This document shows positions 22,650-61,140 of a DNA stretch of 64,000 bases, one piece after another (position 1 is the stretch's first letter; the number at the start of each line of letters is the position of its first letter). Source of the stretch: Pomphorhynchus laevis. Taxonomy: Eukaryota; Acanthocephala; Palaeacanthocephala; Echinorhynchida; Pomphorhynchidae. The notes under the pieces were generated by a model. It was not told the DNA's origin, made no database searches, and saw only the letters and a list, made by a program, of their open reading frames with translations. The stretch lies in assembly GCA_012934845.2 (NCBI GenBank), contig WNNJ02002601.1, positions 1 through 64,000 on the forward strand, given 5' to 3'. The position numbers were made by a program, and so were the translations under genes.

Positions 22650-23157
22650 ATTTATTAATTTAATTAATTTTAAATAATCAAAATTTTTTAAAAGTAGGGA
22701 GATCTATATTTAGACAAATAAAAAGTGTTCCAATTGGAGGTAATAGTAGCCCAATTATAGCTGACTTGTTTTTAAGCTTTATAGAATATGAATTTGTTCA
22801 TAACTGTGTAAAAACTAAATCTAAACAATATAAATATATGAAATATATGTTTCGATACATTGATGATATTTGTGTATTTAATTCTAACAATTTTTATTCA
22901 ATTAGTGAGCACATTTATCCAGAAAGCCTTATTCTTAACAAAACCAATATTAATGATAAAGAAGGTGTATATCTAGATATGAGCATTAAATTAACATCAA
23001 TTAAAACTACTTTTAATTTATATCGTAATGATGACATATTTAAATTTACACGAAACGTATTTTTGCATGAGCATTCATGCATACCATATAATATAAAATA
23101 TAATTCATTAAATAATGAAATTTTAAGAATTGCAACAATTTGTAACGATATTTAAAC
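22650..23157 (+). pseudogene. PLE reverse transcriptase fragment, sense
   Basis: Open frame from about 22650 through the TAA at 23153-23155, encoding the RT palm to the start of the thumb: VPIGGNSSPIIADLF, RYIDDICVFNSNNFYSIS, VYLDMSIKLT, FLHEHSCIPYNIKYN. It is cut before the GIY-YIG and fingers. RT motif C (YIDD) is intact. Ends 50 bp before a LINE. Confidence 0.8.
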
Positions 23158-23208
23158 GATATGTAACGATATTTGTAACATATTAAACTAGCTATCGGGC
23201 CAACAATA

Positions 23209-24072
23209 ATGACGAGTTCACTCCATTTTCGTGATCGCCGTCATCCGGAAGATTTTCAATCTCGCAACACACCTATTTGTGATCAACAAGACTACCATAT
23301 ACCTAACTTGCGTCTCTTATATACAAATATATTTAGTATATCAACTATGTTATCCGAACTTTCCTTTGTTGTCAAGCAAAAAAATGCGGATATTGTAGCA
23401 CTCACGGAAACCTGGCTTAATCCACAAATATGTGATGATGAAATTAGTCTAGATGGATACTCTCTTGTTCGTATGGATCGATTATCTTCAAGAGGTGGTG
23501 GAGTCATCATCTTCGCGGGAGATTCTTTGTCGGTAAGACTAATCGATGCATGCGCTGACGAGGTGTCCCTAAATGAGTACATTTGGGTCGAACTAACAGC
23601 GACAGATAATCGTCATTTCATCGTGGGCTTATTCTATCGATCACCTCGTTCATCCACAGTGTTAATCTGTAACTCATTGCGAAAACATTTAAGAACTAAG
23701 TCATCGGCGATAGTTCTTGGTAATTTCAATATGCCCCACGTTGACTGGATAAACTTCGTGTCTCTACCTGGTTGTGACCCTGAATCAGCAAATCTTCTCG
23801 ACGCTATTAATGACTTGAACCTTAATCAGCTAATTCACGAATTCACACGCGCTCGTGGACATAGTGCGTCTCTACTTGATATATGCCTATCGGTTGATGC
23901 CTCTATCATTGACCGGATTAATTATGATCCATTAATCAGTTCTAGTGACCATCGTGTGATTGATATTGTAGTTTCGTTCAGATGCCCTTGTTCAATCAAA
24001 ACAGTTCCACAAGTCAATCCAATGAAGGCTAACTTTTTCAGTATGGAACGTATACTCAGTACGGTTGCATAG
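23209..24072 (+). CDS. LINE A endonuclease domain (APE type)
   Basis: 287-codon ORF from ATG. APE endonuclease layout: LRLLYTNIFSI near residue 36, ADIVALTETWL near 60-70 (catalytic Glu), GGGVIIFAGDS, VGLFYRSP, then VLGNFNMPHVDW where most families have GDFN, then LLDICLS and ISSSDHRVI (catalytic Asp-His). Would nick target DNA for target-primed reverse transcription. The D-to-N change in GDFN should weaken catalysis. The frame is closed by TAG at 24070; a TGA follows at 24103, and the same frame then runs on to 24687. A dead copy. Confidence 0.8.
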   Translation: MTSSLHFRDRRHPEDFQSRNTPICDQQDYHIPNLRLLYTNIFSISTMLSELSFVVKQKNADIVALTETWLNPQICDDEISLDGYSLVRMDRLSSRGGGVIIFAGDSLSVRLIDACADEVSLNEYIWVELTATDNRHFIVGLFYRSPRSSTVLICNSLRKHLRTKSSAIVLGNFNMPHVDWINFVSLPGCDPESANLLDAINDLNLNQLIHEFTRARGHSASLLDICLSVDASIIDRINYDPLISSSDHRVIDIVVSFRCPCSIKTVPQVNPMKANFFSMERILSTVA

Positions 24073-24138
24073 CCCAATCCTTTTATCATTGGTACTAACC
24101 CTGCATGAAACCATCTCAAACGTACTCTGATTGAGTTA

Positions 24139-25225
24139 TTGACATTCTTCTCACCAATTCAACATAAGAAAACGAGCATCCGTATTCCAATTTGGTTTGA
24201 TTCTGAAATTAAGCATGCAATCAGATCACGGGATATCTCATTTTCTGCGTACAAAGATGGTAGACTATCCTTTGATAAATACCATTTATTGAGAAACAAG
24301 GTAACTTATATTAAGAGACTAAAGAGGAAGAATTTCATTTCTTATATATGTCGGGCTGCATCCTCGAACCCTAAGCAGTTATTCAATCACCTACTGCGTC
24401 GTAATACTGCGCCAGATAAATTTTACAGCATTGTGAACAACGCGGGTGATTTAATTGTTGACCCTATCGAAGTTGCAGAGCTCTTTTCCGCTCATTTTGC
24501 AATTCAAGAAGCAAAGTTAGATTATGACTATTTGTCCCATTACACTCCCAGATTCATTCGATCATGTCTTAATGACATATTAGCGAAGAGGACGTCCGTA
24601 CAGAGCTACTCAAGCTTCCACGTACTCGCGTTTCCGGACCGGATGTCCTTCCATCTATACTTTTCCGTGAGCTGGCTACAGTGTTGACAAGTCCGCTATG
24701 TGCTATATTCCAGAGTTCTATATACTCTGGAAGTTTACCGGATGACTAGAAAAGATCCATAATCTGCCCTGTGTTCAAAAAGGGTGATCGCAATCAGACT
24801 AACAATTATCGTCCCATAAGTCTAACTTCTATTGCGTGCAAAGTAATGGATAAGATTCTGCTTCGTACAGTAAGTTCACATCTAGAAGACAATAACATCA
24901 TCAACGATGCCCAGTACGGTTTCAGACCTCACCGTTCTACGGTAACTAACCTTGTATTCTCCCGGAATAGTTGGTCGAATGCGGTTCAAGCAGGAACGGG
25001 AGTGGACACGCTCTTCTTCGATTTATCAAAGGCTTTTGATAGGGTCGTACACCGTATTCTTATCAATCAACTATCGCTATGTGGGATTGACAGTCGCGTT
25101 AAAACTTGGATACAGTCATTCCTAACTGATCGTTACTTTGCCGTTCGCATCAAAGGTTGTATATCTAAGTGGTCAGCAATCACCTGTGGTGTACCACAAG
25201 GCTGCGTTCTGAGTCCAATGCTTTT

Positions 25226-25227
<2 letters not shown>
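24139..25227 (+). pseudogene. LINE A pre-RT region and RT fingers/palm
   Basis: 24139-24687 is the linker before RT (IRIPIWFDSEIKHAIRSRD). A frameshift near 24590 moves to the frame reading TELLKLPRTRVSGPDVLPSI. A TAG near 24748 interrupts, then 24771 onward gives KKGDRNQTNNYRPISLTS, QYGFRPHRST, TLFFDLSKAFDRV (motif A) and CGVPQGCVLSPMLFN. The next codons would be the IYIND box, where the (TA)n begins. Confidence 0.8.

Positions 25228-25312
<85 letters not shown>
25228..25312. repeat. (TA)n expansion inside the LINE A RT gene
   Basis: About 85 bp of TA exactly where a related LINE (62.1 kb) has codons for LFNIYINELP. The native ATATATATA codons probably seeded the expansion. It splits RT between the GVPQG and YADD motifs and shifts the frame. 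Confidence 0.9.
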
Positions 25313-25314
<2 letters not shown>

Positions 25315-26136
25315 GATATGATTGATGTCATATCCAGTGAGTGCGCTCTATATGCCGATGATTTAAAGATTTTGCGTCCAATACAAAGCACGCACGATGT
25401 AATTGAGTTGCAACGCGACGTAGACTCAATCATCAAATGGTGTCGGGCAAAGGGACTGGTTTTGAATCCTAACAAGTGTGGTCATATGCACATAGGTCCC
25501 ATAAAAATCGTAGGGACATATGCGATAGAAGATGTAAACATCGAAAAGGTTTCATGTTTTAGTGATCTGGGCGTGATCGTAAGTGAATATATGAAGACAC
25601 TAGTCCACGTCCAATATGTCGCATCCAAATGTCGACGTATGCTAGGTATGTTAAGACGCTCGTTTGGCCAACTCGATCCAGTTAGTTTTCGCATTGCCTA
25701 CTCTGCCCTTATAAAATCGCACATGTTATACGCGTCCCCTGCAATACACCCACAGCTCCGTGGCGAATTGGAAATATACGAACGGATATTACGACAAGCA
25801 ACTCATCTTGTGTCCTCAGTGCGTGGTGTCAACTATACCCAGAGACTGGCATTGTTGAATGTACACACTGTTGAACGTTCGCTGTCTGACGCCGACCTAG
25901 TGTATGTATGGCGGTCACTGTCTATACCTGGACATGTTTCGAAGTCTATGTTTACAATTCGTCCACCGGGTCGACTACGAGGCCACAGACTTATGATAAA
26001 GCTCAGGCTCCATCCCAAAACAAATTGTGTTACGATAAGTGATCGCATAGCTGACCTGTGGAACAATCTTCATGCATCGACAATCGACAGCGGTTCCGTC
26101 CAGAAGTTCAAGGCAATTATTAAATCACGAAAATGA
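25313..26136 (+). pseudogene. LINE A RT palm (YADD), thumb and C-terminus
   Basis: 272-codon frame: ALYADDLKIL (motif C, catalytic YADD near residue 12), GLVLNPNKCGHMHIG, CFSDLGVIVSEYM, YSALIKSHMLYASP, IYERILRQATHLV, RGHRLMIKLR and a C-terminus ending FKAIIKSRK. CR1/Jockey-group layout. The ATG is not a true start, because the frame is the continuation of the RT broken by (TA)n. Confidence 0.85.
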
Positions 26137-26400
26137 CAGTTTCACCTTTTATTTCTTTCTTTTCTGTTTTTTTTTATGTTTTTAGCTGTGATCCAGCCAA
26201 TTTGAGCTTATGCTCCTGGGCTGTTGTAACAATAATAATGAACAGTTTAAATAATAAACTGTTGTGACAGTTTCACCTTTTATTTCTTTATTTTCTGTGT
26301 TTTTTTATGTTTTGAGCATATTGGCTGTGATCCAGCCAATTTGAGCTTATGCTCCTGGGCTGTTGTAACAATAACAATTTTTTTAATAATAATAATTTAT
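26137..26400 (+). repeat. LINE A 3' UTR, present twice in tandem
   Basis: The block tttcaccttttatttcttt...ctgtgatccagccaatttgagcttatgctcctgggctgttgtaacaata occurs at 26139-26240 and again at 26270-26380. It holds a GGCTG-tgatc-CAGCC hairpin and a GAGC-ttat-GCTC hairpin, then an (AAT)n tail. Two tails suggest a second truncated insertion at the tail of the first. Confidence 0.8.
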
Positions 26401-27280
26401 TAGGATTCCTCAAATGGGCCTTAAAACATTGTAAAATTGTCCAAGAAAATGAAAACACTGTCAAATTATCAGTCATTAGGATCAAGATCTTGACATTGAG
26501 ACCGGTTGCAACAATGTGGAGCGAGGTGATCTGAGGCTCATAGATACGCCACGTATGACGATACAACCAATTGTTCTTCGCAACCTTGCAATTTCGGCGG
26601 TGTATGAGCTGTAGTTTTTCAGAGCTAGCTTACGTGCAATACCTTGGAGACAACGGTTAGCATCGACACCAATACCTGACGAACATGACAAAATGAATGG
26701 CAAGAAAATTGAATGTTCAATTTCGCGAATTCTTTCTTCGTATTTTGCTATTTTTCGTGCTTGGTGGAAATCAAACGATGAACTTGACGATCTGGAGGCA
26801 TTTGAGGGCGCATGTATGTTAAATATATATCCAAGAAAGTGCGATGGGTAGTACCTCCAAAAAGACCGTTACATACTATGTCTAGGCAAGCACACCTGTC
26901 CGTAGTTGTACTCGATGCTTGAAAGGTGACATGTGAATTGAGTGGTTGAAGTGATGGCTCGATATGCACACCGGATGATACTTTTGTAATTTCCTTAGCA
27001 ACATAATCACGTACACAATTATGTCTGACGGTCGGGAGGTAACCATGTTTACATGACAGAGCGTGAGATAAGGAATTCAGTTGACCACATGAGCAATTTT
27101 TAGGAACGTCTCTGACGATCTGTCCATACCTAGCGGCAATAGCGTTTTTAAATACTGTGTTATTCAGTACTGCGCCATTCGAGTTCGAGGGATAAGCCGT
27201 GAGCCAGGCAGAAGCGCCGCTAACTGTTGCATGATCCAATGCGTTTTGTAAGTGCTCGTTCAATTCAGAGTAGATTGACT
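26400..27280 (-). pseudogene. RT-RLE family, copy A: zinc knuckle plus RLE-like domain
   Basis: Minus strand. 27263-26748 encodes SGASAWLTAYP, AIAARYGQI, CSCGQLNSLSHALSC (C-x-C...H...C knuckle), PTVRHNCVRDYVAKEI, EPSLQPL, CLDIVCNGL and THRTFLDIYL. After a frameshift, 26703-26482 gives PFILSCSSGIGVD...SLRSPRS. The order of zinc knuckle, RHNxxRD, EPxLxP, LDI and FxD parallels the C-terminal half of R2-type LINE proteins. 3' end aatcctaataaattattatt. RT is absent. Confidence 0.65.
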
Positions 27281-27356
27281 GTCTGTGTAATTAGAATTGG
27301 GCTTTATTTGAATACAATAATTCATGATAATTTTTTTATGTGATACATATTTTCAT

Positions 27357-28235
27357 TTACAAGAAAGGGGGTTCCTGCAAATGGGCCCATACATAACTTT
27401 CACTGTCAAAGTTGTAATTGATTTTTAAAACAAGGCGTTCACTATCATATGTGCTGCCTTCTCTGTTTCCTCTTGGACTTCGAAGGCAGAAATATGCTGT
27501 TCGAGCAATTTCAAAGGAAACGCAGCGTTCGATATTTGTGATGACATGCGCATATTTCGTAATGCCTCGTTGTGTGCGAACTGATGCGATTCGTCTGAAC
27601 AAGTTGCCTGTCTCTTTCCCAATGCCACCAGAAGAGGAGAAAATTAGCGGAATGAACCTGCCGGGCTCGATCGCTTTAATTCTTTCTGAATATTTGGAAT
27701 GTTTGCGTGATTCATTGTGCTGAAAGGATGCGTCCACTGATCGGTTGACGAACGACTGAGCAAAGATGTTAAACACGTTGACGTCAAAGAACGTCCGCTC
27801 TAATCGCTCTTTCCACAGGCCCAAACAGGATATGTCCAGCCTTGCCCCGGCGGCTCGACTTGTTGATGTTGCGACGAATTTTAGGGTGTCAGGGACCGGT
27901 AGTAGGTTTGGTTCTATTACTACATCACGGCAAATGGTCAATATTTCTTTTGAAATTTTATCTCGGACGGAGTCGTGTTTGATTGACGGTAATCCTCCCG
28001 ATCTGCATGAGAGTGCGTGGCTCATCGTGATTTCTTCACCACAAGAGCATGATTTGCCGATCAAGTTACTTGGGGTTTGCCCATAGCGAGCAGAAATGGC
28101 GTCTGTGAACTCCTTTGATGACATACAAAAGCGTTCGTTTTTCATAGGGAGGGCGCTGAGCCATGAAGATGCCCCGTCTCTTTGAGCATGATTGAAGGCG
28201 GTCAGAACAATGGTGTCCATAAGGTAAAGTGCCTC
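27357..28235 (-). CDS. RT-RLE family, copy B: open 287-codon zinc knuckle/RLE-like ORF
   Basis: Uninterrupted from ATG (28220) to TAA. GASSWLSALP (16-25), ARYGQ (44-48), zinc knuckle Cys58-x-Cys60...His68...Cys72, KHDSVRD (81-87), IEPNLLP (102-108), ARLDI (126-130), RTFFDVNVF (142-150), SKYSERIKAIEPGRFIPLIF (175-194), then SSSGGIG and CLRSPRG. By analogy to R2, Asp129 and Asp146 could be PD-(D/E)xK acidic residues; this is inference. The copy is 5'-truncated (no RT), so the ATG is probably just an internal Met. The best-preserved C-terminus of the family in the window. It is in tandem with copy A. Confidence 0.65.
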   Translation of the reverse strand, partial: EALYLMDTIVLTAFNHAQRDGASSWLSALPMKNERFCMSSKEFTDAISARYGQTPSNLIGKSCSCGEEITMSHALSCRSGGLPSIKHDSVRDKISKEILTICRDVVIEPNLLPVPDTLKFVATSTSRAAGARLDISCLGLWKERLERTFFDVNVFNIFAQSFVNRSVDASFQHNESRKHSKYSERIKAIEPGRFIPLIFSSSGGIGKETGNLFRRIASVRTQRGITKYAHVITNIERCVSFEIARTAYFCLRSPRGNREGSTYDSERLVLKINYNFDSESYVWAHLQEPPFL

Positions 28236-28330
28236 TGACAGGCTATGACGATGTATGTTTTTACGTCGCGCCGTAATTTAATCGATCGTTTTTGATTGTA
28301 TGTTTTTCGATAACATACATGATAATAATA
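28236..28330. other. Spacer with (TAA)n at the PLE insertion point
   Basis: Ends in gataataataatt just before the PLE terminal module. Naiad-type PLEs are reported to favour microsatellites, which fits. Confidence 0.5.
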
Positions 28331-28696: not shown

Positions 28697-29383
28697 TTAT
28701 TTCTTATCCATCCATAAAAATATGCCACTTAAGAGTTTTAATTTATTCTTTATATTATTGTGTTGATTTATATATTTTACTATTTTCTGCTTGATGTTAT
28801 TTTTATAGTAACCTAGTTTAAAATATGTATCTATTAAATTATTTAAATGATTTTGAAGAAAGCCAATATCATTACATATTGTTGCAATTCTTAAAATTTC
28901 ATTATTTAATGTATTATATTTTATATTATATGGTATGCATGAATGCTCATGCAAAAATATGTTTCTTGTAAATTTAAATATGTCATCTTTACGATATAAA
29001 TTAATATTAGTTTTTGTCAATGTTAATTTAATGTTCATATCTAGATATACACCTTCTTTATCATTAATATTGGTTTTGTTAAGAATAAGGCTTTTTGGAT
29101 AAATGTGCTCACTAATTGAATAAAAATTATTAGAATTAAATACACATATATCATCAATGTATCGAAACATATATTTCATATATTTATATTGTTTAGATTT
29201 AGTTTTTACACAGTTATGAACAAATTCATATTCTATAAAGCTTAAAAACAAGTCAGCTATAATTGGGCTACTATTACCACCCATTGGAACACCTTTTACT
29301 TGTCTAAATATAGATGTCCCTACTTTTAAATAATTTTGATTTATCAAAATATTTAAGGATTTTATTAATTTAATTTTATCCAT
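28697..29383 (-). CDS. Naiad-type PLE: RT palm, thumb and C-terminus
   Basis: 228-codon frame (the true frame extends upstream to about 29550, through YDISTLYTNLD, motif A). VKGVPMGGNSSPIIADLF is motif B, MFRYIDDICVF is motif C (YIDD), and VYLDMNIKLT, FLHEHSCIPYNIKYN and a short C-terminus ending FLWMDKK follow. No endonuclease follows the RT. Makes cDNA of the element. Confidence 0.85.
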   Translation of the reverse strand: MDKIKLIKSLNILINQNYLKVGTSIFRQVKGVPMGGNSSPIIADLFLSFIEYEFVHNCVKTKSKQYKYMKYMFRYIDDICVFNSNNFYSISEHIYPKSLILNKTNINDKEGVYLDMNIKLTLTKTNINLYRKDDIFKFTRNIFLHEHSCIPYNIKYNTLNNEILRIATICNDIGFLQNHLNNLIDTYFKLGYYKNNIKQKIVKYINQHNNIKNKLKLLSGIFLWMDKK

Positions 29384-29534
29384 ATATTTATATTTACTTG
29401 ATAGTTTAATTTTTGTTAGATAGGCGTTATAATTATTATAACATATATATGTATATCTTTTTCCGAATATAAGATTAATTAATTTTACTAACGCTTCGTT
29501 AATAACTACTAAATCTAGATTTGTATAAAGCGTA

Positions 29535-30250
29535 CTAATATCGTATGTTATGAAAATTTATTCCTTTTGTCTGTTCTAAAAATTCTTTTGTAGAATTAAT
29601 ACTGAAATAGTGTTTTATACCAGTATTAATTTCGATTACCTTGCAATATTTTTTAAAATGTGCTTTAATTACTTTAAGTATTTTATTCATATAGACAGAA
29701 AGTGGTTTTAATGTACATTTAAACGCACTACATATGAACCTAGGTTTTATTGGATTTTTATGTAATTTTGGATTCCAATATAATATAGGTATAGTTTTAT
29801 TATCTGATTCAACCTTTATACCCTTTTTATCCATTATAGAACAGTGACTTGTAATAATTGTTTCTAAACTCAACTCACTACATTCATATATTGTATTTAT
29901 ATTTAAATCATTATAATTAACTTCTTTTATCAGTATATCATAATAAAGCTTTTTGCATATGAAGACAAAGTTATTACTAGCTTTATCAATAGTCGTTATT
30001 ATATAGTTATTCTTTAATTTAGTAAGTTCTTTATACATATCTTTATTAATTTTATCTTTCCTTTTATAATTGTTTGTTATTTTCATTTTATTTTTAATTT
30101 TATCAAATATATAATCTTTCCAAATTTTTATCTTAGATATATTCGAGCTTTCACTATTAATCAGCTTACTAAAGTAATCATTTAAGTTATTATATAACGA
30201 ATTGTAAATTATATTTTTGTCGTTGTTATTATTTAATCTATATTCATACC
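29535..30250 (-). pseudogene. Naiad-type PLE: linker and RT N-terminal region
   Basis: Frame from about 30250 (YEYRLNNNNDKN) through ORF 30086-29535: NNYIITTIDKASNNFVFICKK, PILYWNPKLHKNPIKPRFIC (the PKxHK...R.I motif of PLE RTs) and KCTLKPLSVYMNKIL. It is out of frame with the upstream endonuclease (about 30250) and with the downstream palm (about 29550). The downstream break is an 8-nt deletion relative to the copy at 54.98 kb. Confidence 0.8.
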
Positions 30251-30672
30251 CTTGTGTTGCCTAATAGTTTTTGATTTAATATTGAAATGTTTTCTTCTAT
30301 AATATGTTTTAAAATAAATAATTTACAGTTTTTAATATCATGTCCTATAAATCTCATATGTTTATGAAATATAGTTTGACTATTATGCTGTATATTATAT
30401 ATGTGTTGCCTAAACCCAGTTTTCAACATTTGATATGTTTTTCCTATATACTGCAATCCACATGTACATTGCATTAGATACACTACATCTGTGGTATTGC
30501 AGTTACAATTATTATTAATATTTAATGAAAAACATTTGTTTGTCGTATTACTTACGATACAATTATTATTATTTATAACATCACAAACTATACAATTTTT
30601 TCTGTTACATTTAAAAGATCTAAAATTGAAATCATTAGTACTTACGTATTTTTCCAATATGGTTGAGTACAT
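30244..30672 (-). CDS. Naiad-type PLE: N-terminal GIY-YIG endonuclease
   Basis: 142 codons from ATG 30672; a TGA lies 5 codons upstream in frame, so the start is well placed. Cysteine pairs FKCNRKNCIVCDVI (residues 20-33) and CNCNTTDVVYL come before the GIY-YIG core VVYLMQCTCGLQYIGKT (63-79). Then RQHIYNIQHNS and HKHMRFIGHDI, with His residues suiting a CCHH zinc site, and EENISILNQKLLGN. The endonuclease lies before the RT, the reverse of canonical Penelope and the hallmark of Naiad-type PLEs. Expected role: nicks target DNA. Confidence 0.8.
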   Translation of the reverse strand: MYSTILEKYVSTNDFNFRSFKCNRKNCIVCDVINNNNCIVSNTTNKCFSLNINNNCNCNTTDVVYLMQCTCGLQYIGKTYQMLKTGFRQHIYNIQHNSQTIFHKHMRFIGHDIKNCKLFILKHIIEENISILNQKLLGNTRV

Positions 30673-33079: not shown

Positions 33080-33640
33080 TTAATTTAGCCCGGTCGACAT
33101 TTCATTGTGTGACAATGAAATGTGTGACATTTCATTCGAAGCAGTGTAGAGTAAAGATCGTAAAGAGTGAAGAGCTTCTGGTAAAACCAATTGCCAATTT
33201 GATATTGGTAGCTTCATTCCGTCCAATCTCAGAGCTATCGCTTTCCATATGATGCTGTTGAATCTTTCGACCTGACCATTAGAAGTCGGATGATATGGAT
33301 TTGAATGTGTTAACGAAATTCCATGCTGAAGCAGATATTGTCGGAAAGCAAACGATGTGAATGAAGATCCTCGATCGGTATGTATGCTATTTGGGGTGCC
33401 AAATATCGAGAACAGTTGATCCAAACATTTCATTACGACAGTCGTAGATGTATCACAACATGCGAATCCAAATGGAAATCGACTGTATTCATCAACAACT
33501 GTAAGCAGGAAGCGATTTTTATTTGTACTAGGCAAGGGCCCTTTAAAATCTAAAGATAGCCTTTCAAATGGTTGATCAACTTTCCTGCTGGAGGATTGAA
33601 GAACTTTGGTTTTAATCTTGCGCAGCTTTGACACCTATTC
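33080..33640 (-). pseudogene. Gypsy integrase core
   Basis: 184-codon frame. LSLDFKGPLP gives the first catalytic Asp, IHTDRGSSF the second, and NPYHPTSNGQVERFN the Glu of the DDE triad. The zinc-binding HHCC region lies upstream in a broken frame. Integrates element cDNA. Confidence 0.85.
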
Positions 33641-34842
33641 GAAACCAATCTCACATCGTCGATCGAAAAAGGTAAATTTCAACTTCGAATAAAGTGCCAA
33701 TGTCGAGAGATACCTGGATGACGCATTTTCGAATGAAGATCGGTAAGCTCATTGAGATGATTTGGAGAAGTGACAGCGCTAATGACATGTCTTGAGAGAG
33801 CATCGGCTGCTTCATTATTCACACCCCGCCGATAAGAAATATCGAATTGATATTCAGATAGTTCGAGCCTCCATCTAGTTAATTTATCGTTTTTAACTTT
33901 GCCGCGAGACGACTGCGAGAAAACGAACGAAATTAAACGTTGATCGGTAATGACTGTAAAATGACGACCTGCCAGATAATGACGCCAGAACTTGATAGCT
34001 TCGATTATCGCTAGCGCTTCCTTTTCGACAGAAGAATACTTCTTTGCGCTTTTATCGAGGGTCCTGGAAAAGAAGGCGATCGGTTTAGATTTTTGCGACA
34101 GAGTGGCACCTATAGCAAAGTCTGACGCATCTGTCTATACAACAAAGGGAAGTGAAAAGTCAATCTTTGTTAACGTCGCATTGCTTAACCTTTCCTTGAT
34201 TATGGAAAACGCATTTACAGTTTCCTTGGATAGAGAGAATGATGTTGTTTGTGTAAGGGGATGCACGATCTTAGAATAATGATTTATCCATTTTGAATAA
34301 TGCGAGAATAACCCCAATACACTTTTTAAACTAGAAATATCCTTAAGTATCGCCAGATCAATTACTGCTTTGACCCTATCAGGATCCGGACAAATAGCTT
34401 GTTCACTCAATTGGTAACCAAGAATTCTTATTGTGGAGACACAAAATTGACATTTGGATCTGTTGAGAGTAATATTATAACGTTTAGCTACGTCTACGAA
34501 ACGTTGAAGGTTATGGTTATGCGCTTCGATTGTACTTCCAGCGATTACAATATCATCAGGTATGCGAAGGTGTCTTTTAATTTTTCGGTCTCAATGATCT
34601 TCGAGATTATTCGCTGGAACACCGCAACACCATTTGTAAGACCAAACGGCATGCGACAGAACTGATATAGACGTCCATTTGCTTCAAATGCGGTTTAACA
34701 TTTTTCATCAGCCCTGATTGGAATTTGGTGGTACGCGCTCTTAAGATCCAAAACACTGTAGTACTTGTAGGAAGCGAGCGTGTCGATTAAGTCGTCAATC
34801 CTTGGTAATGGGTGAGCGTCCAAACAAGTAAACCGGTTGATG
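33641..34842 (-). pseudogene. Gypsy RT and RNase H, multiply broken
   Basis: Fragments across frames: LDLKSAYHQIPI, RMPFGLTNGVAVFQR, then the YxDD box (about 34550) broken by a single-base loss, ILGYQLSEQAICPDP (34410), and RNase H pieces up to ADALSRHV near 33790. At 34842 a small deletion closes the upstream protease/RT frame just after RMVID. Confidence 0.8.
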
Positions 34843-34843
34843 G

Positions 34844-35713
34844 TCAATCAATTACCATTCGAGTTGCTTTACGTTTATCTTCCACAAGCACAACTTGAGC
34901 GCGCCAAGGAGATATACTATGTTCGATAATATCATCCTTTAAAAGACGTTGAACCTCGCATTCAATGAAGTCTGAATCTTCTGGAGTTCTTCGCCGTGAC
35001 GCAATAGCTATAGGTTTCACATAGGAAGACAAATATGAGAATATTGATGAGGGATCTATACTCATGGCAGAAGCAGATGCAACAACGATTAAAGGGTTCT
35101 CGGTACCGTCAAATCGCATCGTAATTGCAGAATGACGTTTCATAAAAGGCATCCATAATATTATTTGAGCGACAAGGTTAGGCAAAGTAAAGAATTTAAC
35201 GTTCTCGTATATCCGTCCAACTAGTGTAATTGTAGCGTAAACAAACTTTCGCAAGTTTACCTTAAAAACAGACGATGTCATGCGGACAGGCATGTTTGCC
35301 GAATGTGTTTTCAGATTGCAGTTAGCAACAACGTCCTCGCGCATAATATTAATAGAGCTGCCTGTGTCCATCAACGCATGTAGACTCAATCCACCCATTT
35401 GTACGATATGTTGTAGTAGATGTGATCTTTCGTTGTTTGAGCAAAATGTTCCAGCTATAACAAATGTAGATGGAACATGTTTCGATCGACAAACCTTGGC
35501 AAAAAGACCTTGTTTGTCACAGTTTCGACAACGAGCGTTACGTGCAGGACACGATGTACGATTGTGGTATGGCTTGCCGCAAACATAGCAGTTCCGATTC
35601 CGATGGATTGTTGAACACATATCCACTTGAGTAGCATCCACAAAACATCCGTCGGTTAGACACACGCTGTCAACATTACTGACTGACGGATGTTCTTCTG
35701 CTGATTCCAACAT
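34844..35713 (-). CDS. Gypsy zinc knuckles, protease and RT N-terminus
   Basis: 289-codon frame. CCHC knuckle CYVCGKPYHNRTSC near residue 42, a second, degenerate knuckle CRNCDKQGLFAKVC near 62 (His lost), aspartic protease ALMDTGSSINIM near 112-123 (DTG active site), then FIECEVQRLLKDDIIEHSISPW at the RT start. Follows gag with a short gap, in another frame. Confidence 0.8.
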   Translation of the reverse strand: MLESAEEHPSVSNVDSVCLTDGCFVDATQVDMCSTIHRNRNCYVCGKPYHNRTSCPARNARCRNCDKQGLFAKVCRSKHVPSTFVIAGTFCSNNERSHLLQHIVQMGGLSLHALMDTGSSINIMREDVVANCNLKTHSANMPVRMTSSVFKVNLRKFVYATITLVGRIYENVKFFTLPNLVAQIILWMPFMKRHSAITMRFDGTENPLIVVASASAMSIDPSSIFSYLSSYVKPIAIASRRRTPEDSDFIECEVQRLLKDDIIEHSISPWRAQVVLVEDKRKATRMVID

Positions 35714-35725
35714 TGGTTTTCTATT

Positions 35726-36262
35726 TTATCTAGAGAAAGTCGTTGCTTGTTTGTGGGCGGTTTTGATTGCCCGAGCCAACTTGTACGCATCATACTTTTC
35801 CAACACTGTACTCTCCAACAAACGTTCTCTGATTGCCGTCGAAGAAATGCCAGCGACGAATGTGTCTCGTAGAAACATGTCCCGGTGTTCGTCTGCATTG
35901 AGCGCTTTAAACTGTACCTGTTTTCCGAGGGATTCCAAAACTCTGATAAACTGGTCGATTGATTGATCAGACTCTTGTACTGCGCTACGTAGTTGATGTC
36001 GCAAATAAACGTCGCTACGATCTTTGACAAATGCCGATGAGAGGGATTCGATTGCTGTAGCATATGTAACACATCCATCGATCAAATCGTAAATCGACGA
36101 TGATACATGATTGACAAGAAGATTTAGTTTCTGTTCGTCAGTGATAGATTCAATTGATCCAAGGAAAGCGTCAAATCGCTTGAACCATTGACGCCACTCG
36201 CGTGCAGTATTCTCTTGATCCGGCGATAGATCGAGCACTGACGGCTTAAGTAACTTATCCAT
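35726..36262 (-). CDS. Gypsy Gag
   Basis: ATG at 36262 lies 22 bp after the 5' LTR. 178 codons: WRQWFKRFDAFLGSIESITDEQK, YDLIDGC, SLSSAFVKDRSDVYLRHQL and FIRVLESLGKQ, the usual retrotransposon Gag capsid pattern. Forms the virus-like particle shell. The zinc knuckles are on the next ORF, after the TAG/frame change. Confidence 0.8.
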   Translation of the reverse strand: MDKLLKPSVLDLSPDQENTAREWRQWFKRFDAFLGSIESITDEQKLNLLVNHVSSSIYDLIDGCVTYATAIESLSSAFVKDRSDVYLRHQLRSAVQESDQSIDQFIRVLESLGKQVQFKALNADEHRDMFLRDTFVAGISSTAIRERLLESTVLEKYDAYKLARAIKTAHKQATTFSR

Positions 36263-36271
36263 CTCCAAACA

Positions 36272-36283
36272 ATGTTGAATAAA
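36272..36283 (-). promoter_or_regulatory. Possible self-priming primer-binding site
   Basis: In element sense TTTATTCAACAT starts 1 nt after the 5' LTR. Its exact complement ATGTTGAATAAA lies within the LTR (36312-36323). This resembles the Tf1/sushi arrangement, in which the RNA 5' end folds onto the primer-binding site. No obvious tRNA 3'-end complement was recognised. Confidence 0.5.
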
Positions 36284-36284
36284 T

Positions 36285-36370
36285 TGTGACAAGAAAACGA
36301 CCTTAGAAGGTTTTATTCAACATCTAGAAAACAAAGAGTTTATGTTTCAATTACAAACAAGATCACGACA
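36285..36370 (-). repeat. 5' LTR of gypsy element
   Basis: 86 bp, in element sense TGTCGTGATC...TTGTCACA. Confidence 0.9.
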
Positions 36371-36375
36371 CTCTC

Positions 36376-37560
36376 ATACAAAATAATGTACCTTTTGTTA
36401 AGGTGAATGCTATGCTTTTTCAAATTTCTAAATTCAGCTTCAACGCCTATTATGTGGCTCTGACCACACTTGAAAATATTAGCGGCAAGAAGTTAGCATC
36501 ATTTTTTATTCTTCTGATTCTCTCTAAATATTTTGTTTTTCCTTTATTAGTAATGCTCCAAAATCTCTCTTGTTCCCGTAAATTTATAAGGAGCAAGCGT
36601 GTTAAATACACAGCCAAAATTACGATCAAATCCATCACCAAATACCCCTATTGCAGAGGCGTTTAATCTCGCTTCAGTATCACGTGAAATAGTTCTCTTT
36701 TTAAAGTTAAAAGTTACATCCACTTGATGTAACTTTGGTTTAATGGTAACTCAAGAACAACATTTCTTTAAGCTGTTCACAATCACGTTTTCTGACAGCG
36801 TCGTGTCGGGCTATTAAAATGGAACCTTTTGCATGACTGCAAATTTAAAATAGTTCGTAGTTCCCAGCAAAATCATATAGCTTGTTTCTCTTCCGATTCT
36901 AATTCGTATCAAGCCAGCAATACATTCTGAAACTGAATCTTACTCAGGTTGAACTTTTCGTTTTAATAGAAAAGTTATCAGCCACGTTGAAACGCCTTTT
37001 TAATAAGAGTATTTTTGATAGATTTATGTATTTCTTCAGAGTGCTTATGTAAAACTCGAATTTGGACTGACAATTAGATTTTTGTGTTGCAATTTCATTG
37101 CTTGTGTGTTATGATTGATCCGATCATTCCTTCCGTTGCAGACACTTGCCATATTCTAGGCAAGTGTCTGCATTGAGATTTAGAACATCAAGTCATCCCA
37201 TTCTCAGTCGTAATTATATCACATTCCTCAAAGCTGATGTAACGCCCTTTTCACTATGATTTTTGTCAAAAACGTAAAGCTTATTAACTGCTCTATCAGA
37301 ATAAATCATTTATTTGGCATTTTCATGTTCTTTTTATATACGTCACTTATGCTTTTAAAAAATTGGAACCCTATATACGCTTCTTGTGGCTTAATTTCAA
37401 CAATTTGCCAATTTTGATATCCACTTTTTTATTTTTTCTTTTTATTTTACATACATTCCTCTAAGTCGATATTTCACACCGGAGCTCCTAGAATTGTCAA
37501 TCCATCATTAACTATTTTTATGTCTAAATGTTCAAAATTTTTTATAGCGTGATCTTTGTC
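36376..37560 (-). pseudogene. RT-RLE family, copy E (RT thumb to RLE-like end)
   Basis: Minus strand, frames broken but order clear. FEHLDIKIVNDGLTILGAPV near 37530-37460 (RT thumb region), IKPQEAYIGF, KGVSTWLITFLLK near 36990, ILIARHDAV near 36800, ARLNASAIGVFGD near 36670, FNTLAPYKFTG near 36600, then KYLERIRRIKNDANFLPLIFSS near 36490. This shows that the RLE-like end continues from an RT. The gypsy inserted after TLFCM; the remaining tail with AATAATAAT lies left of 32634. Confidence 0.6.
37138..37171. repeat. Perfect 13-bp inverted repeat (hairpin)
   Basis: GCAGACACTTGCC, an 8-nt loop, then GGCAAGTGTCTGC, inside the decayed copy E. No terminator role is implied. Confidence 0.85.
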
Positions 37561-40059: not shown

Positions 40060-41200
40060 ACAACATATGGTTCCCTCAAATGGGCCAATATACATTTAAC
40101 ATTGTTATTTATTATTATTTATACTAAAACATTAGAATCATCCATCCGTTCGGATCCACGACTATATGGGTGACCCCTAGTCGACCGACACCCTCTGATT
40201 GCATGTGAGGCAGCACGACACAGCAGCAAACTTATGGACCTTCTGAGGCCACACAGGCATTCAGCATAGCTTTTATTCCCACGTGATGAACGCAATCGAG
40301 CAATTGTCCAGAGCAAAACCATGGCGTCGGGTCCCGCAGCACCAGAAGCCGTGAACACCAGCGGCATAAATCTACTCCTTTCGATATCGATGATACGTTC
40401 CGCGTATTTTGATCTTTTTCTCGCTTCATGCAAATCAAATGCAGCATTTCTCGTAGACGCACACGATGGAGCAAAATGGTTGAAAACCGTAACGTCAAAG
40501 AACGTTCGCTCATATCTGGCGTCAGAAAGCCCAATGCAGACGATGTCGAGTCGCGCGTCGTCACTTCGACAAGTGACCCGATGATCAAAACAGTGATCAC
40601 TATCTACCCGTTGTAATATCGGTTCGACACCAACCCCAGTACACACCTGTGATATTTCGGTGGCCAAGAAATCGCGTAAGGCGTTATGCCTTGTTATTAC
40701 AACACCTCCTCGCTTGCACGAAAGCAAATGTGGGAGTTTCGCATCATCACCACACACACTTGTCCTTGGGAATCCCGATAGGGTCAAAGCCATATCGCAA
40801 CGCAAGAGCATCTCTGAATTCATGTGGACACAAATGACTAAATTCAGCTTTCACTGGAACTGCACTAAACCAAGAGGAAGCACCCTGTCCCAGTGCAAAT
40901 TCCAGAGCTTGATGCATTGAGGCGGGTAAGATTGATCGAATGTATGCCAAACGCTCATCCACAACTTTTTGTCGTTCTCGATTCAACTCTTTTGTCAAGT
41001 TATTCTAAGCATCCCTTAGAAGATCACCTTGTAGCCCACTATCAAATGTTTTACAAAAAATTTTCGAGCTTTCGAACTCGGTCAAAGCTGCGCCTACTGG
41101 ATCAACAATGCCCATTCCACCCTTTGAAATTGATGACGAAATCAACGCGTGCATAACTAAGTGTAGATCTTGATCGAAAAGTGAGGGAGCCAAACCACTG
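40060..41200 (-). pseudogene. RT-RLE family, copy C
   Basis: Minus strand: SISKGGMGIVDPVGAAL (41193-41005), MHQALEFALGQGASSWFSAVP (40998-40747), then after a frameshift VCGDDAKLPHLLSC, VITRHNALRDFLATEI, VEPILQRV, DARLDIVCIGL, RTFFDVTVFNHFAPS, SKYAERIIDIERSRFMPLVF (40600-40320) and CRSTRG. The 3' end is aaatgtatattggcccatttgagggaacc, like copies A and B. Truncated on its 5' side by the tail of LINE C. Confidence 0.65.
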
Positions 41201-41204
41201 AATT

Positions 41205-41298: not shown

Positions 41299-44208
41299 TC
41301 AAGCAGATAAATTGTTTAAATGGGATCGGATTTGTCGTTTGAAGCACTGCAGGGAAGTTGATTGGCGTATATGAATGGACAGATTATTCCACGATAGAGG
41401 AGCAGCCACAAGGAAGGAGCGGAGTCCAAAGGAGGTAGAGTAGTTTGGGACATGTAAAAGAAGGGAATTACAGGAACGCAAGGAACAGTAAACAGGACGA
41501 GAATTATCAAGAAAAGGAAGGTTGAGAAATGAAGGGGTATGAAAAGTTACAAGGCGGAAAGCAACGATAAGAAGACGAATTTAAACACGACAATAAATTG
41601 TAGGCAAATCGAGAGAAGCAAGATGGTAGGTTGTATGATCAAAACGACGAAGACGAAGGAGAATTCGGACAGCTGCGTTGACGATGCGTTGTAGGGGAAG
41701 AAGAGTGGATTTAGGTGAGTTGGAAAATAGACTAAGACAATAATCGAGTCTAGAAAAAAGGAGAGATGATATGAGAGTCATACAAGAAGGGAAATCGATC
41801 AATCTATGAACTTGACGGAGGTTGCGGAGTATCAAGGTAGATGAGTGTACTTTATCTCTAACGAAAGGTTTAAGTGAAAGTCGGTTGTCAAAATGGAAGC
41901 CTAGGAAAACGAGATTATCAACGATAGGAAGAATTGTAGAATTTAATGATACGGAGGGAGGTTCAAAGCCGAGGCGTCGAGGTAGGATCCACATAATTTT
42001 GGATTTATCAGGATTCAGAGAAAGGCGAAGGGAAGAAAGATGATTGGAAATTGAGACAAGACAGTCGGAAGCGGAAACACTAAGATCGTGAATACGATAA
42101 ACAGGTGCATGAGCATAGATGAGAATGTCATCAGCATATCGCATAACATGGAAGTTAAATTTATGAGAAATCGAAGACAAATCACCAAGAAGAAGAGAGG
42201 AAAGTATAGGGCCTAATACGGAGCCTTGTGGAACACCGGACGGAATGGACGAAGGATGGGAAAGAGAAGAGTTAGAATATACGCGAAATGTACGGTTTGA
42301 TGGATATGAAGAAAATCATGATACAGTGGGTAAAGAGAAGCCATAATGATGACGAATGCGATGGAGAAGAATCGAGTGATCGACGATGTCAAAAGCAGAC
42401 GATAGATTAAGAGAAACTATGACACTACATAATTTATGATCGCGCGATATGAGTAAGTCGTTATAAACTTTAAGACATGTAATTTCGGTAGAGTAATTAG
42501 AGCGAAAAGCGGCTTGGAAGGGAGGAAATAAGTTAGAGGAATAGAGATATGTATTAACTTGCTTAAGAACAAGACGCTCAAGGAGTTTAGAGAGGGTTGG
42601 GAGAAGTGAAATAGGACGGTACGAAGATGGTAGTGAGGAGTCGAGAGATTGCTTTTTGATGAGAGGACGAACAGTGGCGCATTTCCAGATGGAAGGAAAT
42701 GTACGGCTACAGATGGACGAGTTGAACAATGTGGTTAGGAAGGGTAAGATAGAGTAGCAGATAATTTTAAGCAAGTGAGTGGGAATTGGGTCAGAAGGAG
42801 AGGTTTTATTAGGTAATGACAGCAGTACCGAAGAAACTTCATCAGACGAAACGGGAAGAAGGTGAAATAGTTCAGGGAGGGAAGTATTTAAAGATAAGAG
42901 TGGGTACAAGGGGGCTATGGGTAGTAGGGAAAGTAAATTAGATAACTTAGTTTGTAGATAAGAAGAAAATTCATCAGGATTTATATTACAAGGGGTAGAT
43001 GATCGTGAAAGAATTGAGTTTAAGATTTTCCAATGAGATTTAGAGTTGGAAGATGACTCGAGTTGATTTCACCAAAAGAGAGTACGTTTAGTACGTATAA
43101 GAATGAGATGTGAACGGCGTTGAGAAAAGTAGGAATCACGAAGATTTGGAGGGAGTGAGTTGGGTGAACGTTTAAGAAAGCGTTTATACATACGAAAAGA
43201 GTGACGAAGTCGACGCTTAGAAAGAATACAGTCAGAATCGAACCAGGGAGCATGGCGCAAGTGCTGGGAACGTCGAAGTCGACTAGGCAGAAGGTTATTG
43301 AGGATCGACGTAAGTTCAGAATCAAACAGAATGCAGAGATCATCGGGAGAGATATAGTTAAGAGGAAGTGAAAAGAGTGAAGAATTGAGTAAGGCTGTGC
43401 AGAGAACAGGGATATCGAGAAGCTTCCAGGGTCGACTTGGTGTAGATAAAGGTAAAGGCGGAGAAGGAGGATGGGGACGAGTAAGAGTAAGAGTGACAAG
43501 GAAATGATCGGACAAACCAGGATCAGTAATTGACAAGGAGGTATAGTCATTGAAGCAGTTAGGAACAGCAATGATGTCGAGAGCACCGCCGAGAATATGA
43601 GTTGGGCTTGTTGAAAGTAATTTATAGTTAAAATCAGAAAAAATATTAGTTAAAGTGATAGAGTCAGAGTCAGACGGGCAATCAAGACGAATGTTAAAGT
43701 CACTGAGAACAAAAGAAGGAGTATAAGACAATGAACAGTGAGACATTAGATCTGCAAGGTCGTTAAAGAAGATACGTGATGGGGCAACTGAACCTGGACG
43801 GTATACAATCACAAGTTCCAGAGGGAAAGGCGTTGATAATCTGCATATGAGTAATTCGAACGAAGTGTAACGGATGTTAACGTTGATTTTACGTAAAGAC
43901 ATTGGGTGACGAGCAATGGCAACAATACCGCCATGGTTAGACGCAGTAGATGTATGAGATGTAATTTGACGAGCTGATTCAACTAGAGAACAACCAGAGC
44001 GACATAGACGACGAATAGCAAGATCGTCGGAGTCAGAGTGCCAGGATTCGGTAATGCAGAGAATATCGATAGATAATTGATCGAAGATATCGAGAAGCAT
44101 ATCAGCTTTATGAAGAATGGAGCGAGTATTGAATAGACTAAGACGAAAAGTATGCTTAGGAGCGAGATCGACTAGCGAAGAAGACAAGGGGGAGAGATGG
44201 GACGCCAT
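41299..44208 (-). pseudogene. LINE C ORF2: APE endonuclease plus RT, three in-frame stops
   Basis: One frame of about 970 codons from ATG 44208 to TGA near 41299, broken only by TGA at about 43066, TGA at about 42313 and TAA at about 41578. Endonuclease: SLFNTRSILHKADML, DILCITESWH, GGIVAIARHPM, VIVYRPG, VLSDFNIRLD, GALDIIAV, GLSDHFLV (catalytic E, D, SDH present). RT: SPSDPIPTHLLK, VRPLIKKQSLDSSLPSSYRPISLLP, FQAAFRSNYST, SVIVSLNLSSAFDIVDH (motif A), FHVMRYADDILIYAHA (motif C), SLNPDKSKIMWI, then VFLGFHFDNRLSL. The strand is pyrimidine-rich. Young but dead; the sister copy (58.5 kb) lacks the TAA. Confidence 0.85.
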
Positions 44209-45497
44209 CGAATTTTTGGCCTTGTGTGAAGAACGTGAAAATTTCCGTTGATTTTACGTATAGATAAAGATGACTCACCGTTTGTTTCAAGGCGATGTTT
44301 TTCAATGCGAGCTAAATTGAGCTGGGCAATATCAGAAGGGGAGCGGTCAGGAAAGATACGACAAGTAGATGAAGTGGTAAGAAGTTTAAAACGTTGGGAG
44401 AGTACCGAAGAGGCATGTGAACTATGTCGGAAAACAATTTTTAAGAGTGGAGGACTGAGATGATTGGATTTAGTGGATTTGTTTAAACGAATAAAGGATA
44501 CAGGAGCGATATTATTGAAGAGTGATGGGTTATCATCAGGAAGTATGGTTGCTAGGATAGACCTGAAAGCAGATACATCATCATCGAGGCGAGATTGTGG
44601 AGAAGCAGATTCGGAAAGCTTTAAGTTTGATATGATTATACAGCGATCGCGCGAAGGAAAACGATTTCGTGAAAGTGGTGGACGGACAGAGCTGGTAGGA
44701 GTCGAGGTAGATGAGCAGATAGAAGTGGAAATGACAGGGGTGCTTGATAAAGAATTAATATTGGTTGGAGCAAGTGTGACAGGAGCGGGGTGTTGAATCG
44801 GTTGATCAGAGATGTGACTGGATATGATTTTAAATGAAGGATGTAAATTATTTGGAAGTGTTACGTGGGAGGTAGAGTAAGGAGAATTAAAATAGGTTAG
44901 GGCATGAGTGACAGGAATGGAGTTTTGAATCAGTTGATCGGAAATGTTACTGGAAATGATTTTGATGGAAGGGTGTAAATTATTGAGAGGTGATACAGGG
45001 GAGGTCGAGTAAGGAGTACGTGAGGAGAATAAAGAAGTTTGAGATTTATTTAGATTGGGGGAGGAATAGGAAAGAGGAGGTACGAGATGAAAAGCTTTAC
45101 CGTTAGCATTGTTAGAATGAGAAAGATTAATGGAAGTTTGGTACGTAGTTGAACGAGGAGTGTGTGAGAGAGTAGGTTTAATAATGGGATTATATGATGC
45201 GAAGTCAGGTGTTGATGCGAGGGAAACATCTAAAACAGCATTGGTTTGAGTGGTCGTGTGTGATACAGGAGTAGATGAGCAGGATAACTGTAGTAGTCGT
45301 ACTGATGTACAAAAACCGCAAGTGAAATGTTTACGTTTATACACCGAGTGGTCGGATATTTTAACACGAACAAGTGTCCATACATCGCAATCTTTGGAAT
45401 CGGATCCAACTTCAAAGCTGGTATAACCATCATTGCATTCTGATGTGGAAGATTCTTGATCAGGAACAGGGATCTGAGATCGCGCTTTTTTAGGCAT
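44172..45497 (-). CDS. LINE C ORF1 protein with N-terminal zinc finger
   Basis: 441 codons, ATG start, uninterrupted. N-terminal half-finger pattern CDVWTLVRVKISDHSVYKRKHFTCGFC (residues about 35-63, PHD-like), a long Ser/Thr/Pro-rich low-complexity middle (about 80-275), and a more ordered end (RCIIISNLKLSESAS, FNNIAPVSFIRLNK, SPPLLKIVFRHSSHASSVLS, RTKIRW-like) that resembles an RRM/nucleic-acid-binding fold. It overlaps ORF2 by 37 bp in a different frame. RNA-binding chaperone role expected for LINE ORF1p. Confidence 0.7.
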   Translation of the reverse strand: MPKKARSQIPVPDQESSTSECNDGYTSFEVGSDSKDCDVWTLVRVKISDHSVYKRKHFTCGFCTSVRLLQLSCSSTPVSHTTTQTNAVLDVSLASTPDFASYNPIIKPTLSHTPRSTTYQTSINLSHSNNANGKAFHLVPPLSYSSPNLNKSQTSLFSSRTPYSTSPVSPLNNLHPSIKIISSNISDQLIQNSIPVTHALTYFNSPYSTSHVTLPNNLHPSFKIISSHISDQPIQHPAPVTLAPTNINSLSSTPVISTSICSSTSTPTSSVRPPLSRNRFPSRDRCIIISNLKLSESASPQSRLDDDVSAFRSILATILPDDNPSLFNNIAPVSFIRLNKSTKSNHLSPPLLKIVFRHSSHASSVLSQRFKLLTTSSTCRIFPDRSPSDIAQLNLARIEKHRLETNGESSLSIRKINGNFHVLHTRPKIRWRPISPPCLLR

Positions 45498-47785: not shown

Positions 47786-48050
47786 CTTTACGTACAACAA
47801 TTTACATTTTTAGTCATTGACGTGTAGTCCGTAACAGAGAGCAGTGTCCTTAAAGATTTTCCGTATATATTTTGTAGATCATATGCCGTTCCAATGCAGT
47901 TTGTATCATCTGCTTACCATTTCTGTATTACTGTTATACAACTTTGATGTTCAATCAAAGGCATCGTTGCTAGAGTATAGAATGATATTGCTAATGGGTA
48001 ATTTTGAGTTATTCCTTCCCTTGGTAGTATTTTGAACTTATTTAGTGAAG
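47786..48050 (-). pseudogene. RT-RLE family, RT palm fragment (copy F)
   Basis: Minus: EGITQNYPLAISFYTLATMP, LIEHQSCITVIQKW, a stop where the Y of YADD is expected, ADDTNCIGTAYDLQ, then (other frame) CYGLHVND and KCKLLYVK. The GDPLA...PLI...QVWYADDA...GYxxN layout is that of RTs I associate with the GASSWLSALP family. Abuts the RTE fragment. Confidence 0.5.
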
Positions 48051-48377
48051 GTGTTACATTTTGTTCAAATATATATTATTTGCAACATATTCTAGGATTG
48101 TACAAATTCGAGCGATATTGTATAAAGCGGCCTTTCGATTGATTTAATTGATTGATTTTTGACATGATTTGATTCTAAACAAAAACTTTGCTTGATTCGT
48201 GGATAACGTATTCCGCACCCGATTTTTGACCTGAACATAATCGATTTTCTCTTCAAACATCTAACACAATGGGCTGTACAAGCCAGCGATGGTATTACAT
48301 ATTATACGCCTTGAATCCGTTTCAACATTATCGGCGGATACGTGGTTGTTTGTCGATGGCTATTAGTTGACATGCAG

Positions 48378-48511
48378 TGAGCGCTGTTAAAATTTTAGGA
48401 TTTCATTGGTATCGTGGGCATACGATGTACTACACAAGACATTATTTGGCAAGATTTTTTGAGCTTAATCTAAATTGTGATCAAGTTGAAGAGAATGCTC
48501 AGCTTTTAAGG
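48378..48511 (+). other. Exon-like segment, unknown
   Basis: acatgcag acceptor, an open 44-codon stretch (AVKILGFHWYRGHTMYYTRH...DQVEENAQLLR) and a GTATGT donor. It reads like protein, but no domain is recognised and no partner exon was found. Confidence 0.25.
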
Positions 48512-58350: not shown

Positions 58351-58369
58351 TGGCTAACGACTATTTTAC

Positions 58370-60379: not shown

Positions 60380-61140
60380 AAATAAAAAAAATTCTTAGGA
60401 AACAATGCCTTAATTCATGCATCAGAAAAAGGCGCATCAACCTGGTTATCTTCAAGGATTAGCGAAGATAGGCAGTATTGTCTAAATAATCATCAGTTTT
60501 ATGATGTGCTTGCCGCTAGATATGGATGCCAATTAAAAGACGCTCCGACAAACTACACACTATCTTGCAAAAACAGGAGGATTTACAATTGTTCGACATA
60601 ATGTGATGCGCGACATTATAGCAGGTATGTTATCTGCAACATGTAAGGCTATTGAAATTGAGCCGGTCCTACTTCCTGTTGAGTCTTCTTACAATTTTGA
60701 TAGAATAACAACGTGTAAGGATATGAATGCACGCCTTGATGTTGCATGCAGTGGTTTATACGGGGATTCGACAGAGCGGTCTTTTCTGGACATTTGCGTT
60801 TATAACGTTCATGCTCCATCGTATGCCAATCGAAGCCCTCATAGTTTGTTTGAGTATCATCACAACAGAAAGCAGGCAAAATATTTAGAGCGAGTATCTA
60901 GGATCGATCGTGCTTCGTTTATTCCGGTTATTTTTTCATCGTCTGGCGGAATCAGTAGAGTCACATGCATTACTTAAGAGAATAGCGTCAATACAGGCTT
61001 TAAGAGGGGACAATAGTGATTGTATCGCTTCGTTACGTCGAAAGATCGGGTTTGGTCTAATAAAATCAAATTCTTGGTTTTGTCGATGCGGTCGTCAGAG
61101 GTCTGAAGAGATATAGTTAGAATATATTTATAATGAGGCC
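60380..61140 (+). pseudogene. RT-RLE family, copy D
   Basis: SEKGASTWLSSRIS, FYDVLAARYG, YTLSC, IVRHNVMRDIIAGML, IEPVLLPV, NARLDVACSGL, RSFLDICVYNVHAPSYANRS, AKYLERVSRIDRASFIPVIF (60603-60977), then after a frameshift LLKRIASIQALRGDN. The C-x-C half of the zinc knuckle is deleted before TLSC. Confidence 0.65.

Follow-up and report, generated by a model that had tools for sequence, protein, structure and literature searches.

The window analysed here, 64,000 nucleotides of Pomphorhynchus laevis contig WNNJ02002601.1, holds remains of a retroelement family, two of which (copies A and B, both on the minus strand) occupy positions 26400-28235 (contig C1526; L- and C-numbers denote loci and contigs of the same assembly). 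The family is, we are confident, a large and deep-branching group of long interspersed nuclear elements (LINEs, or non-long terminal repeat (LTR) retrotransposons) that bear a restriction-like endonuclease (RLE) and are distantly related to R2. Retroelement copies had been expected here from the letters of the window, and the repeat is real: in the 249-Mb assembly (3242 contigs) a DNA search with the stretch gave 41 rows, comprising itself, 21 of A-type (95-98% identity), 18 of B-type (90-96%) and one short piece (85%), and a protein search with copy B gave at least 132 matches, where 129 of 9568 first-look candidates were scored, so that the counts are lower bounds.

Architecture of the element and predicted fold of its end domain

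Open frames of at least 1028 amino acids hold 7 of the 132 matches of the copy B search, and the whole element can be read from locus L031, where a 1046-residue frame (Met at L031:1899) runs from an N-terminal cysteine cluster into a reverse transcriptase (RT; Pfam RVT_1, 2.9e-16) and then into a linker with GVSSWLSALP, a CPCG...H...C knuckle, RHDAVRD, EPRLQP, RLDI, FFDV and KNSKY. The L030 copy, with 99.5% identity to L031 over 3122 bp, reads GASSWLSALP in the linker. The best matches of the L031 RT are R2 RTs, both by profile search and by Foldseek. A Pfam scan of the 1046-residue frame at E<=1 returned RVT_1 alone, with no match to an upstream apurinic/apyrimidinic endonuclease (APE), and therefore no other endonuclease is seen upstream. 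The element is a single-open reading frame (ORF) LINE with an N-terminal Cys-rich module, an RT, a linker containing GASSWLSALP, a CCHC knuckle and an RLE, which is the R2-type order that the original prediction had proposed; among 234 fetched family proteins, 129 have at least 900 residues, and by pattern the RT precedes the RLE in 117 of these, with the other 12 missing one of the two.

A-type copies in L009, L012, L014 and L016 each match L031 residues 1-1015 in one stretch at 35-37% identity (their open frames reach 988 residues in L012 and 816 in L014 and L016), and a 1074-residue frame in L017 is 43% identical to L031, so that several deeply separate lineages coexist in this genome. At L029:597-4940 (-) a 1447-residue open frame joins, one after another, two element parts that come from different lineages, and a 1294-bp piece of this locus is repeated 4586 bp away.

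At E<=10 Pfam has no match to copy B or copy C and a chance-level one (0.15) to copy A. The local Pfam copy did not detect the end domain in eight relatives scanned, and a search of the PDB sequences with copy B alone gave no match. An AlphaFold model of copy B (27420-28238; pLDDT 90.4) has a predicted fold that the R2 linker-knuckle-RLE matches far better than all else listed, as had been anticipated, with no unrelated fold in its place. Numbered from the Met at residue 20 of the copy B ORF, Glu103, Asp129, Asp146, Lys173 and Tyr177 correspond to the R2-type set and are invariant in 59/59 family proteins, which are 27-38% identical to L031 (copy B itself is 56% identical to it); Asp129 and Asp146 had been named in advance and stand as the candidate catalytic aspartates. 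Pattern matching in 215 of the 234 proteins finds the knuckle spacing CX1CX7HX3C-X8-RH in 207, and places L (195), V (10), P (4), A (3) or S (3) between the Arg and the first Asp; the two aspartates are spaced D-X15..17-D. The end domain appears to be a nuclease of the R2-type PD-(D/E)xK fold and the putative cutter of the target. It is highly improbable that it is instead an inactive nucleic-acid-binding remnant, with entry through nicks made by other enzymes such as local APE LINEs: the replacement of PD by RLD and the insertions beside CR1-like tails would fit such a remnant, but the five active-site residues have stayed invariant in all 59 proteins despite their low identity, the predicted fold is R2-like, and the proline is also missing in the MoTeR and FoTeR elements as they are described in print (PMC12857005).

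Junctions, target sites and 3' ends

The L031 family has spread recently, its DNA search giving 44 rows at 98-100% identity from 40 scored candidates. Thirteen of these rows cover the query from position 1 to at least 3137. Once contig edges and the second pieces of broken copies are set aside, the starts of the truncated copies form a graded series between 21 and 2177. A common 3' end at query position 3142, suggested by 35/44 rows, was rejected, as the L031 query itself departs there and the true end lies some 30 nt further. In 30 fetched junction pairs, to which L030 and L031 were added, the 3' untranslated region (UTR) is common to 30/30 fetched copies up to TTTTTCTC or a near form; a run of at least six A follows in 29 of them and in L030, C2358 has four A, and L031 departs earlier. 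The first flank base after the A run is T in 29 of 30 flanks.

The flanks of the 30 fetched pairs are mutually different and AT-rich, and insertion shows a preference for a TTA-rich repeat, not for a single target gene. After removal of seen duplicates, 7/15 truncated copies carry a perfect (TTA)n 9-mer within the final 40 nt of their 5' flank, compared with 1/15 on the opposite strand and with 0.7% for either strand in 20,000 background windows (binomial 6e-12). The 3' flanks carry the 9-mer in 12/30 versus 1/30, where six of the 12 represent one duplicated flank and two another. Target duplications are clear in only about 3/15: C305 has 15 nt exact, L030 has 17 nt of which part is A run, and C2602 has 14/15 nt by eye. 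Copy A, the C534 copy and the A-type copy of L017 all abut the same CR1-like LINE tail-to-tail at its 3' tail, a TTG/TTA-type repeat forming the junction; such tails explain the flanks of these three, and 15/30 tested flanks are unmatched in the fetched sample. This junction pattern is the one expected of target-primed reverse transcription of an A-tailed RNA into TTA-rich repeats. A further flank motif, AATACAAC, seemed recurrent and is noted as a candidate.

Upstream of near-identical long L031-family copies (L032-L054, L080, L090) at least two different 5' leaders precede a common TACACCATCTAAA start, which suggests exchange of 5' UTRs among them. Rfam at gathering scores gave no match in the window, L029, L030 or L031, and therefore no known 5' ribozyme family is seen in these sequences.

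The expectation that the copies share a 3' end was borne out by the motif GGCCCATTTG at the ends of copies A, B and C. With one mismatch allowed, the 266 kb of fetched DNA yield 29 occurrences of GCCCATTTGNGGG (0.2 matches in mononucleotide shuffles), and 27/29 occurrences lie on the same strand, from -60 to 450 nt from the C-terminal coding end of an element, compared with 4.9% of random positions, both drawn from loci chosen for holding such elements. The motif is common to the A-type and B-type elements, to window copy C and to the elements of L013, L017, L024, L028 and L029, and it is absent from the young L031 family. A scan for an ATTTG hairpin found 7/48 ends and was spoiled by a truncated query, so that the GCCCATTTGNGGG count was used instead. 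CCC/GGG pairing around AUUUGN is possible and the inner stem hardly varies, but a stable 3' RNA hairpin was rejected as an established feature, since none of six folds has a z-score below -2 (best -1.97).

Copies in the window and their neighbours

The coordinates of the family members in the window are collected in the table. The tblastn match of copy A, 26485-27308 (-), is spread over two frames, and its protein is 96-99% identical to the A-type frame in L012. A weak 58-residue match to the element lies at 36616-36789 (tblastn, E 2.3e-5). Of the motifs said to be shared by copies A to E, copy B has the full set apart from KHDSVRD in place of RHNxxRD; copy A reads CLDI in place of RLDI and copy C reads SVCG in place of CxCG. 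Two further copies, F and G, had been credited with upstream RT parts, and one RT-only piece was identified rather than both.

Table. Features of the element family in the window
Feature	Position	Strand	Remarks
3' tail of CR1-like LINE	26160..26399	+	ends in TTG/TTA-type repeats; copy A tail-to-tail against it
Copy A	26400..27311	-	A-type family; 5'-truncated, decayed; C-terminal part and 3' end kept
Copy A 3' motif GCCCATTTGAGGA	26407..26419	-	
Copy B	27355..28311	-	5'-truncated B-type copy; tblastn match 27417-28307
Copy B open frame, 306 aa	27357..28277	-	linker end, knuckle, RLE, C-terminal helices
Copy B 3' motif GCCCATTTGCAGG	27374..27386	-	
Copy B KxxKY-type motif	27690..27704	-	Lys and Tyr in RLE helix 2; both invariant 59/59
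Copy B second catalytic-type Asp (FFDV), Asp146	27783..27785	-	invariant 59/59
Copy B first catalytic-type Asp (RLD), Asp129	27834..27836	-	invariant 59/59
Copy B conserved Glu (EPxL)	27912..27914	-	end of RLE strand 1; invariant 59/59
Copy B zinc knuckle CX1CX7HX3C	28005..28049	-	
Copy C	40073..41202	-	linker and RLE in two frames, 3' motif GCCCATTTGAGGG; tblastn part 40158-41202
RT-only fragment	47863..48402	-	same element type; tblastn with L031 protein, E 3e-11
Copy E	60404..61101	+	knuckle and RLE in three frames; tblastn

Judged by their sequences, copies A and B are dead, 5'-truncated remains of the LINE family and not whole elements. Matches that share their starts, 27311 and 28311, had suggested elements of fixed length that are non-autonomous, and this was rejected: DNA matches begin at 27311 because copy A is cut there, and other copies extend further upstream. 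It is barely conceivable that the copies in the window represent a domesticated 306-residue endonuclease gene or short non-autonomous elements, as the open frame of copy B with all five catalytic-type residues might invite one to think, for in 7/9 compared B-type loci homology to copy B begins at 28311 with shared element sequence continuing upstream, so that copy B is cut there and not defined there, and its nearest B-type relatives (82-91% identity) contain 1-4 stops. Both a linker and an RT are present in B-type loci upstream of the part homologous to copy B.

Several other elements surround these copies. At 23179-26399 (+) lies what reads as a CR1-like LINE. Its N terminus can be read as APE-type (GNFNMPHVDW), its RT contains a long IY-coding microsatellite, and its 3' tail is duplicated (26160-26236, 26290-26384). 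RT reading frames at 28697-30260 (-), 22664-23155 (+) and 54809-55273 (-) (Pfam RVT_1 3.9e-7 for 28697-29557) belong to elements that we take to be Penelope-like. Broken frames of a putative Gypsy-like LTR element, with integrase, RNase H and CCHC-like readings, occupy 33080-36316 (-), and split frames that read as an L2-type LINE, with similar frames in several fetched loci, lie at 41581-45503 (-) and 58358-59197 (+).

Placement among RLE elements and proposed mechanism

Two ORFs of this genome with incomplete RTs and two gappy R2 relatives were left out of the RT tree, which flags one long branch of odd composition (L019). The tree puts the 19 family rows on a branch of their own (100/100, stem 4.27), 21 R2 rows (3 PDB entries and 18 relatives of an R2 query) on a separate branch (82/84) and 7 further LINE-type RT rows from the genome on another (99/86). 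The RT is LINE-like, as the original prediction had supposed, and in this tree falls outside the R2 clade. The R2 elements of known structure (R2Bm 8gh6, R2Tg 9dou/9nl3, Platysternon R2 9nl2) resemble the family in having a single ORF with RT, linker, CCHC knuckle and RLE in that order, in the predicted RLE fold with its RH, E, D, D and KxxKY residues, and in profile similarity of RT and C terminus, GASSWLSALP being the counterpart of the KXRINALP of R2. The Lys/Tyr KxxKY motif is among the features described for R2 in PMC5678591. The family differs from R2 in its RLD, where R2 has (K/R)PD (proline in 4/215 pattern-matched family proteins), in its CX1CX7HX3C knuckle, where R2 has CX2-3CX7-8HX4C, and apparently at its N terminus, where R2 has CCHH and Myb modules and the family has a Cys cluster or, in some of its relatives, a PHD or SAND domain; no CCHH finger or Myb match was found in L031 by Pfam at E<=1. 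R2 inserts at one rDNA site and the family often at TTA-rich sites, and insertion at one 28S site was not found here, since flanks differ and Rfam gives no rRNA match in the window, L029, L030 or L031 (28S was not compared directly). In its probable mechanism the family is like an R2-group LINE, and in tree position, target and PD motif it departs from R2.

Among the catalogued RLE clades, the CRE group has spliced-leader targets and includes the Odin clade, and Dong inserts in TAA repeats. Whether the family is a metazoan branch of one of these clades (the CRE group, R4/Dong, NeSL, HERO), which bears on novelty and not on mechanism, we consider an even question. The CRE group (SLACS, CRE1/2, MoTeR, FoTeR), compared by printed description only, is like the family in RLE motif order and knuckle spacing: the rule printed for SLACS/CRE, C[X1-3]C[X7-8]H[X3-4]C[X9-10]RHD/N.X19-33.E, is close to the CX1CX7HX3C-X8-RH(D/N)-X19-E of L031, which makes CRE kinship a live rival, and MoTeR/FoTeR, which have telomere targets, carry RAD instead of PD (PMC12857005). 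Some HERO families and other RLE elements are also described as having microsatellite targets (PMC4640811). The printed D-D spacing of SLACS/CRE, X12-14 (PMC12857005), is shorter than that of the family, and no point against the kinship is decisive.

Other relatives can be likened by description. BLAG of the German cockroach is described as a non-site-specific R2-like LINE with one ORF of about 1000 residues, an RLE, no Myb and dispersed insertion, like the family (PMC7650587), and its three printed motifs, which mark BLAG elements between the zinc finger and the RT, gave no phmmer match at E<=10 in the 59 family proteins, with BLAG motif 2 scoring -1.3 bits in the reverse profile search. Sponges are described as having R2-homologous elements away from the 28S site (PMC13188248); those kept in the published tree have a predicted Myb domain, where Pfam finds none in L031, and the likeness is by description only. 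One family member comes from the sponge Corticium candelabrum. Prp8 shares RT, linker and an RLE with matching Lys/Tyr placement, and is described as differing in being a splicing factor without the CCHC motif, its active-site residues not metal-coordinating in the crystal (PMC5678591); in Foldseek, spliceosome chains rank after LINEs. Within the open-licence PMC literature, as far as its available text extends (including PMC3636483 and PMC2881922) and with Repbase outside that scope, no description matched this lineage.

Of the 7992 candidates scored in a database search with the L031 protein, 163 proteins reached E<=0.001, and a search with the end region of the sponge member gave 562 proteins of 1736. 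The names listed gave no confirmation that similar proteins occur in many invertebrate genomes, Corticium candelabrum being the only animal species named among the 120 rows listed in each search; one row listed in the second search, named as an alphaproteobacterial metagenome-assembled genome, is taken for misbinned DNA. The 120 listed L031 relatives include 12 with PHD and one with SAND, near the N terminus in the scanned proteins carrying them. PF27108, which is listed for some relatives and was not returned by the local Pfam copy, may be a more recent model that covers a part of these proteins. As that copy does not see the end domain, relatives are probably listed as uncharacterised proteins, and one such name was found. 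It is possible, but to us doubtful, that the family constitutes a major unrecognised RLE LINE lineage that occurs in sponges and probably in further animals, belongs to none of R2, CRE, R4, NeSL and HERO and is specialised for TTA repeats, the 3' tails of other LINEs among them; its marks would be RLD, the RT motifs DAxNAFN and EGxTQGDPLAM, interchangeable PHD/SAND chromatin-reader domains, and a 3' GCCCATTTGNGGG in most lineages seen here.

For the RLE-bearing LINE that the evidence favours, we infer nicking, target-primed reverse transcription and recognition of the RNA through the GCCCATTTG motif. The protein would bind the 3' end of its own RNA, the RLE would nick one strand at a TTA-rich repeat, and the RT would use the nick to prime the cDNA. 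The target duplication would come from a second cut at a distance of about 15 bp, and 5'-truncated copies from an early arrest of cDNA synthesis. As a predicted R2-type nuclease, the end domain suggests what a large family of proteins is likely to do. The finding also adds to the RLE LINEs, a class now developed for gene insertion, a deep and naturally variable branch, set apart by the position of its active-site proline, by knuckle spacing, by N-terminal modules and by target. With a young family of near-identical copies, both the choice of target and the 3' signal can be measured directly. If the lineage is indeed separate and specialised for TTA repeats, one type of LINE would be feeding on the debris of another.
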